Shown piece by piece: positions 49,310 to 50,659 of a stretch of 64,000 nt of DNA. Source of the DNA: Nocardia acidivorans NBRC 108247 (GTDB lineage: Bacteria; Actinomycetota; Actinomycetes; Mycobacteriales; Mycobacteriaceae); NCBI RefSeq assembly GCF_001625085.1, contig NZ_BDAW01000013.1, positions 1-64,000 on the forward strand, read 5' to 3'. The notes beneath the pieces were generated by a model that saw nothing but the letters and a program-made list of their open reading frames with translations, ran no database searches and was not told where the DNA came from. The position numbers were made by a program, and so were the translations under genes. Numbering within the stretch: position 1 is the first letter of the stretch; every line of letters begins with the position of its first letter.

Positions 49310-49382
49310 TCTGCCACAATGTTCGATTTGCGCCGCCTCCGGCATCGTGGGCTGTGTTCTTGGCGCCGCCTTCGGCGTCGCG

Positions 49383-49474
49383 GTTCGCGGCCCTGTGAGC
49401 TCGGTTCTTCACTCCTCCGGTCAGTCGCTGCGCTCCCTCCCTCCGTCGCTCCAGAACCGAGCCGGGCCGCGAAC
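49383..49474 (+). repeat. Palindromic element, copy A
   Basis: Outer arms GTTCGCGGCCC (49383-49393) and GGGCCGCGAAC (49464-49474). Inner arms GCTCGGTTCT (49399-49408) and AGAACCGAGC (49453-49462). The centre is a pyrimidine-rich stretch with repeated CTCC and TCGCT. It is a long hairpin whose sequence reappears inverted at 49641-49735. Confidence 0.85.
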
Positions 49475-49640
49475 TCGGGGGTGACACGACTCGGTGACGA
49501 GTTCGCCAAGGGTGCTCGACGGGGGGAAGCGCAGCGGGTGCACACACTGCAAAAGGACTGGCCCCGACCCCATTTCGACCGCAGGACGGGTCACAGGGGC
49601 GAGGCCGATGAATATCGCCGCGCGATAGCTCAACTCACAT

Positions 49641-49735
49641 GTTCGTGGCCCGCCCCCGGTTCTGGACTGAGTGGAGCGGGGGAGCGAAGCGGAGGAGCGG
49701 AAGGAGGGAAGAACCGGGGTCACAGGGCCACGAAC
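49641..49735 (-). repeat. Palindromic element, copy B (inverted relative to copy A)
   Basis: Outer arms GTTCGTGGCCC (49641-49651) and GGGCCACGAAC (49725-49735). Inner arms CCCCGGTTCT (49654-49663) and AGAACCGGGG (49710-49719). The reverse complement matches copy A along its length (GGCCCTGTGA, GGTTCTT, pyrimidine-rich loop, CCAGAACC), with compensating changes in the inner stem. Confidence 0.85.
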
Positions 49736-49766
49736 CGCCGGAGCGGAGCGGAGGCAAAAAATACAG

Positions 49767-50555
49767 CTATTTCTGGTTGTAGTAGCCGTTTTCGGCCAGT
49801 TTGCGACGCTCCTCGGCGGAGACGTCCACGTCGGCCGGGGAGAGCAGGAACACCTTGGTGGCTACCTTGTCGAACGAACCACGCAGGGCGAAGGCCAAAC
49901 CTGCGGCGAAGTCCACAAGGCGGCGGGCGTCGCTATTGCTCATCTCGACCAGATCCATGATCACCGGGGTGCCGTCCCGGAAGCGCTCACCGATGATGGC
50001 GGCTTCTGCGTAGGTGCGCGGGCGCAGCGTGGTGATCTTGGACAATGGGCCTCCGTCCTCGAAGATCGCGGAGCGGCGCGGCGGCTGCTGTTCCAGCCGG
50101 CGCTCCTCCATCCGCAGCTCTTCCATGCGCCGCTCGGCCTCCGGGTCCACCGCGAGCGCGCCGCGGGTGGTGCCGCGCACCATCGAGGCGCCGGCGCCGC
50201 CCATGGAGCGGCTGCGGGTGGACGGGGCGGTATCGATACGGGTGGGGCGACGCGGCGCGTCGTAGCGGTCGCGGTCACGATCGTCCGCGTATTCGTCGGC
50301 GTAGTCGTCCCGGCGCGAGGCGCTGTACGCGGGCTTGTACGGCGCCTTGTAGGGCGGCGGCTCGGCGTACCCGGGCTCATCGTCGTAGCGCTCGTGCTCG
50401 TACCGGTCGTAATCACGCTCGGCATAGGACCGGGGCCGGCGCGGGGCACGTTCGTCGACGGCGGGGCGCGGCCCGCGATCCTCGACGTAGTCGTCTTCGT
50501 AGTCCTCGAGCGGAACCATGCCGAAGTACGCCTTGAACTTGTGCAGCGTGCTCAT
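49767..50555 (-). CDS. sepF: Cell division protein SepF
   Basis: A 262-residue FtsZ-anchoring protein. The N-terminal amphipathic membrane-binding segment is [21 protein letters not shown] long disordered linker rich in Arg, Asp, Tyr and Pro (about 20-150) follows. The C-terminal SepF domain (about 170-255) has [20 protein letters not shown], then [18 protein letters not shown] and [12 protein letters not shown]. In mycobacteria SepF takes the role of FtsA. The ATG at 50555 is preferred over 50636, because the amphipathic helix starts there. It follows yggS after about 100 bases. Confidence 0.95.
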
Positions 50556-50659
50556 CTGGTCGACCTTCCTTCGGCCCCGGTTGGCCTGGGGTGTTGTCCT
50601 GCTCAGTCCTCGTTCGCCACCAAGCATATGTTTCATATGTGACTGATGAGGTTTCTTTG

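Follow-up and report, generated by a model that had tools for sequence, protein, structure and literature searches.

Small dispersed palindromes have been studied extensively in Proteobacteria, and several of the described systems resemble a repeat that we report here from Nocardia acidivorans NBRC 108247 and its relatives. ERIC/IRU (127 bp) shares with the Nocardia repeat a length of about 127 bp, a largely palindromic sequence, an intergenic location, tens to hundreds of copies, a hairpin that would be stable if transcribed and the lack of a known enzyme. ERIC is bounded by TA termini and 7-bp terminal inverted repeats and duplicates its target (PMC2229807), whereas the ends of the Nocardia repeat, as read directly, carry neither TA nor terminal inverted repeats, no target duplication is seen in its too strongly diverged flanks, and the unit consists of two separate hairpins with variable stems and a conserved loop. 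YPAL/RU-2 of Yersinia (168 bp) has internal inverted repeats and termini without TA (PMC2229807), as does the Nocardia repeat, but in a comparison of descriptions only it differs in sequence and has no known pattern of conserved loop and variable stems. Bacterial MITEs (Correia/NEMIS, RUP) are likewise small, non-coding and dispersed and sometimes alter the expression of their neighbours; in the Nocardia repeat, however, the ends (TGTGTTT.. and ..GAAC) are asymmetric and lack terminal inverted repeats, and a clean target-site duplication is not visible in the diverged flanks. REP/REPIN elements with their RAYT transposase are extragenic palindromes without terminal repeats, with lineage-specific stems and with tandem or mosaic arrays, all of which recurs in Nocardia, and their high-copy extragenic character is found here as well, with 61 copies in the own genome, up to 106 in relatives and none of about 99 inside a predicted gene. 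The Nocardia repeat differs from REP by the absence of a Y1 transposase from copy-rich genomes, by the missing GTAG/GTGG head and by a unit that is about five times longer. Integron attC sites are imperfect palindromes with sequence-variable stems that are recognised as folded single strands. The Nocardia repeat is also an imperfect palindrome with variable stems, but its ends read GTTCG/CGAAC in the main Nocardia subfamilies instead of GTTRRRY/RYYYAAC, the variants of other genera do not match either, cassettes are missing, and the copies are scattered among core-gene neighbourhoods.

The best reading of these comparisons is a new family of non-autonomous intergenic palindromes that is akin to ERIC or REP and fits neither definition. 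In the open-access literature searched, no Nocardia palindrome family of this kind is described; most subscription journals were outside this scope, and a description elsewhere is possible. The family adjoins core genes in most of the sampled Nocardia genomes and shows the replacement of stems while pairing and loop are kept, and several sets of orthologous filled and empty sites make its mode of spread testable. The repeat also breaks assemblies, with arrays located at contig ends, and could be used as a typing marker.

The locus under study is the gap between sepF and yggT in the window, i.e., the whole analysed stretch of 64,000 nucleotides (positions 1 to 64,000 of contig NZ_BDAW01000013.1). 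A first-pass annotation had described two palindromes in this gap, and re-reading the sequence confirmed its coordinates, the two-tier arms and the compensated changes of the outer arms. Hairpin A (92 bp, 49383-49474) and hairpin B (95 bp, 49641-49735) are spaced by 166 bp. The outer arms, GTTCGCGGCCC (49383-49393) and GGGCCGCGAAC (49464-49474) in A and GTTCGTGGCCC (49641-49651) and GGGCCACGAAC (49725-49735) in B, are 11 bp long and perfect, and a C/T difference between A and B is matched by a compensating G/A difference. The inner arms comprise 10 bp in both hairpins, namely GCTCGGTTCT (49399-49408) and AGAACCGAGC (49453-49462) in A and CCCCGGTTCT (49654-49663) and AGAACCGGGG (49710-49719) in B. 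Each of these hairpins is the larger half of an element of about 127 bp, in which a TGTGTTT/TGTATTT tract and a small hairpin, both missed by the earlier description, come before the big hairpin. The features of the gap are the following:

49352-49476, plus strand: element A, whole unit (TGTGTTC tract, small hairpin and two-tier hairpin); covariance model R1, 105.7 bits, E 1.8e-17; alignment A1
49362-49381, plus strand: small hairpin of A (GGCGCCGCCTTCGGCGTCGC), alternative small-hairpin type; sequence
49383-49474, plus strand: two-tier hairpin of A; sequence and fold
49639-49766, minus strand: element B, whole unit; covariance model R1, 134.8 bits, E 2.6e-23; ORF list
49641-49735, minus strand: two-tier hairpin of B; sequence and fold
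49737-49755, minus strand: small hairpin of B (GCCTCCGCTCCGCTCCGGC on the minus strand); sequence and alignment A1
49756-49766, minus strand: conserved 5' tract of B (CTGTATTTTTT on the minus strand); sequence and alignment A1
49327-49350, plus strand: solitary small-hairpin-like second copy beside A, upstream of yggT; direct repeat D1, 83% to 49360-49383

The small-hairpin type of A recurs with covarying stems in other copies and in other genera. Element B starts immediately past the stop codon of sepF (49767-50636, minus strand), and a distance of about 40 bp separates the end of element A from the likely start of yggT (49309), toward which the reverse strand of A points. Single-sequence RNA folding of these structures yielded z values from -0.3 to -3.2, which is weak evidence.

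With A as query, 52 places of the 7.57-Mb host genome were retrieved (best non-self E 3e-35), and with B 55 places (E 2e-42); the two hairpins are thus not chance palindromes. An alignment of 34 copies defines the unit of about 127 bp as a TGTGTTT-like tract, a small hairpin and a two-tier hairpin with a pyrimidine-rich loop of about 45 nt. The small hairpin has the form GCC(C)TCCGCTTCGCTCCGG(G)C or alternatives to it. Loop and neck (GGCCC..GGGCC, TTCTTC..GTCCAGA) are conserved, whereas the stems are variable yet paired. The copy search with the covariance model R1 (length 128) revealed 61 matches in the N. acidivorans genome, and full counts for related genomes are 106 (G073), 94 (G089), 93 (G074), 82 (G001), 46 (G129), 36 (G003) and 28 (G086). 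Copies are present in 133 of the 148 sampled Nocardia genomes, and the wider family extends to 29 of 201 genomes and 6 of 31 genera, i.e., Nocardia and five further ones. The copies outside Nocardia have the same tract, small hairpin, GGCCC/GGGCC neck and TTC..GTCCAGA loop edges in combination with wholly different stems (e.g., GTGTGCGGCCC/GGGCCGCACAC). The initial proposal of a dispersed non-coding repeat family to which A and B belong is hence borne out, and searching the own and related genomes for the arms uncovered many copies with conserved pairing. An alternative loop class, with a long extra inner stem and a short tip in place of the pyrimidine-rich loop, occurs at the loci L145 and L147 (G086), L243 (G144) and L245 (G018).

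None of about 99 copies lies inside a predicted gene, although the calls stem from a simple codon-usage caller and their starts are approximate. The TGTGTTT end is oriented toward a gene start in 36 of 46 copies of the own genome and in 36 of 50 copies of other Nocardia (72/96), and about one quarter of the copies, including B of the window, face the opposite way. Between co-directional flanking genes the reverse strand runs with the genes in a ratio of 38:9 (p 2.5e-5, array neighbours counted once), and the gene pairs of the own genome comprise 13 divergent versus 1 convergent context; some sites recur across species, which makes these location counts only partly independent. GGAGG(G)CAAA, the end of the reverse strand, in several copies runs directly into a predicted start codon. 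Predicted starts within the element are the ATG of a dapE-like gene (L110, GGAGGGCAAAATG), the TTG of a response regulator in the own genome (C86:35340) and G073 (GGAGGCAAATTG), and an ATG for the gene at C15:89643 in four genomes. Judged from the sequence, the element apparently sometimes supplies the ribosome-binding site and the start codon of a neighbouring gene; if copies truly do so, they represent an unusual source of new 5' ends. In G001 (C4:48292-48867), the RNase P RNA gene is followed, after 18 bp, by a copy of the element.

The comparison of the orthologous sepF-yggT gap documents the history of both elements. A and B are both present in the own genome, G073 and G129; the gap of G074 contains B only, that of G011 a decayed B with broken stems, and those of G001 and G027 exclusively an A-like copy near yggT, and in many relatives the gap measures about 146 bp and contains neither of them. 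G074 and others have a conserved region upstream of yggT, the place of which is taken by A in the own genome, G073 and G129. A and B are independent insertions. The alternative suggestion of the first-pass annotation, that the hairpins, 166 bp apart, might form the termini of a small non-autonomous element, is thereby rejected, since relatives carry one without the other.

Presence and absence were also observed beyond this gap. We traced the flanks of 18 own-genome copies in five relatives, aligned the sites and found both filled and empty orthologous alleles. At C86:35340 a copy is present in G073 and missing from G129, G074 and G060, and at C38:51389 it is missing from G073 but present in G129 and G074. 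C15:89643, C26:29813 and C37:67491 are each empty in two or three relatives. The aligned empty and filled sites offered no clean target duplication or insertion junction, and empty and filled alleles often diverge by a few tens of bases outside the element itself. Three relatives harbor the small hairpin without the big one at C12:6564, and the two hairpins may accordingly not always move as one unit; at C3:18134, G129 and G073 have just a palindrome that resembles the outer stem. In comparison with the empty alleles, the original 5' end of the response-regulator gene is gone at G000:C86:35340-35468 (L012) and at L189 of G073, and the predicted TTG is located inside the element after its GGAGG.

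The pairing of the stems is retained throughout the family. Standard pairs account for 97.4% of the stem cells in 116 matches (110 distinct), with two-sided changes in 17 of 23 pairs, and for 98.7% in 65 more distant matches, with two-sided changes in 20 of 23 pairs; the alignments were fitted to the model and are therefore biased towards structure, and the pairing of the non-Nocardia copies is visible by eye. Both sets exceeded all 500 shuffles in the percentage paired, the two-sided changes and the covariation score, and slid control structures were paired to just 29-52%. The stem cells are not independent events: copies in one genome share a founder, and most compensated changes are inherited within a subfamily. 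Orthologous sites provide a closer view. At C3:18134, the rare arms ATTCG..CGAAT occur in both the own genome and G074, with a compensated C-G/T-A pair as the difference between them; at C90:14163, one inner pair is missing from both arms of the G074 copy, which represents a coordinated loss; and at C5:114171, C66:20300 and C69:4519, the inner stems differ between orthologous copies. Sites thus outlive individual sequences, and conversion may be more important than transposition.

G-U pairs are usually tolerated in helices under RNA selection. In the repeat, they account for only 11 of 2400 standard pairs (0.5%) on the consensus strand and for 37 of 2426 (1.5%) on the reverse strand, compared with 13 of 193 (6.7%) in an RNase P RNA control that comprises just two sequences, from the own genome and one other Nocardia. 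The scarcity relative to this two-sequence control (p 2e-9 for the consensus strand, 4e-5 for the reverse strand) favours a constraint at the DNA level, i.e., the copying of a folded single strand or the re-matching of arms by template switching, over ordinary RNA selection. Among the residual stem mismatches, A.C on the consensus strand, equivalent to G.U on the reverse one, is overrepresented (37 vs 11, p 2e-4), and this skew fits weak RNA selection or C-to-T mutation of the transcribed strand. The original proposal of selection on structure thus stands insofar as pairing is kept far beyond chance; the few G-U pairs and the coordinated arm changes, however, fit a DNA-level process as well or better. 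RNA selection as the sole explanation is weakened by the G-U scarcity, with the residual G.U skew pointing in the opposite direction.

We favour, with a probability of about 0.55, the interpretation that the repeat is a non-autonomous palindrome family that is copied in a hairpin-dependent manner by an enzyme acting in trans, persists between genes and occasionally takes the role of a leader. Such an enzyme would recognise the folded single strand with its hairpins, loop and tract and thereby generate new copies, and in consequence only well-paired copies would found new subfamilies. Resident copies would decay or have their arms re-matched via template switching or conversion from other copies. 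Insertions would survive chiefly in intergenic positions, mostly with the TGTGTTT end toward the gene start, where some might be recruited as a leader whose reverse strand could provide GGAGG and, in a few copies, also the start codon; any effect on the host would then correspond to that of a structured leader or an intercistronic segment. A more far-reaching version is doubtful. It envisages a previously undescribed class of mobile palindromes in Mycobacteriaceae, with lineage-specific stems and a conserved loop, whose folded single strand would be copied by mobilising machinery distinct from Y1 (RAYT/IS200) transposases. These palindromes would also serve as portable translation-initiation leaders that provide host genes with a Shine-Dalgarno sequence and start codon.

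Two other scenarios, both improbable in our view, deserve a closer comparison with hairpin-dependent copying. According to one of them, the reverse strand is transcribed as a structured 5' or intercistronic leader, and selection on the fold controls translation or mRNA stability of the downstream gene. The orientation toward gene starts (72/96), the 38:9 ratio between co-directional genes, the GGAGG at the end of the reverse strand with a predicted start codon next to it in some copies, and the reverse-strand G.U skew are all in agreement with a leader. On either strand, however, G-U pairs are several-fold rarer than in RNase P RNA, and the skew can also stem from C-to-T mutation on the transcribed non-template strand. 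The flanking genes are moreover unrelated housekeeping genes, relatives without the element at the same gene have no evident substitute, about one quarter of the copies including B face the other way, and Rfam holds no matching family, with no match near any gathering score. The other scenario dispenses with selection: template switching between the arms at replication and conversion between copies would match the stems, and recombination and neighbour transfer, instead of a transposase, would account for the spread. It would explain why changes are two-sided with few intermediates, including transversions and the disappearance of a whole pair at orthologous sites, why inner stems differ among orthologous copies, and how the tandem arrays between typA and lpqW arose. 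Drift alone does not yield a loop that is conserved across genera alongside stems that are not, presence and absence at many unlinked sites requires a route of insertion, and old copies such as B of G011 do lose their pairing.

Movement of a REP/REPIN-type element by a REP-associated Y1 tyrosine transposase would be in line with the extragenic location, the palindromic structure without terminal inverted repeats, the lineage-specific stem variants and the short conserved tract before the small hairpin. This reading is very improbable, and we rejected it because Y1_Tnp (PF01797) is absent from the copy-rich own genome and from the likewise copy-rich G073, G086, G089 and G001; only 27 of the 148 Nocardia genomes contain Y1_Tnp, and Y1 transposases are ruled out as mobiliser in the present genomes. 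The tract is also TGTGTTT and not the GTAG/GTGG with a hairpin of about 20 nt that characterises published REPs (PMC2817692). A search for Y2/HUH IS91 enzymes gave zero matches, while the control genomes gave none either, and between closely spaced copies there is no transposase, just housekeeping genes (ClpB-like, SigH/anti-sigma, TypA, GpsA-like). A duplicated intrinsic transcription terminator, for which the strong intergenic hairpin and the position of B immediately after the sepF stop codon might speak, has a negligible probability: the hairpin is not followed by a T-run, most copies precede gene starts, and convergent gene pairs, the expected place of terminators, are rare (1 vs 13 divergent in the own genome).

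Several loci exhibit further variation of the hairpin modules and of their arrangement. A tandem array with a period of 123 bp is located between typA and an lpqW/mshB-like pair (G000:C53:31755-32062 and C54:1-232; L063, L064), and the assembly breaks within it. In G086, the loci L121-L137 are near-identical copies that are embedded, after unrelated genes, in a larger mosaic of degenerate repeats of about 50-65 bp with the motif GGTGACCG, and exact insertion junctions are not readable from them owing to this surrounding mosaic. The same genome harbors a short form without the inner module (L146, G086:C38:453984-454046), in which the small hairpin recurs in inverted orientation on the far side, resulting in a symmetric element. 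A loop insert, GCTCCAAGGCGCAGGTCTATGGAGC with small variations and itself a small hairpin, is common to L217, L219 and G000:C46:43318-43454.
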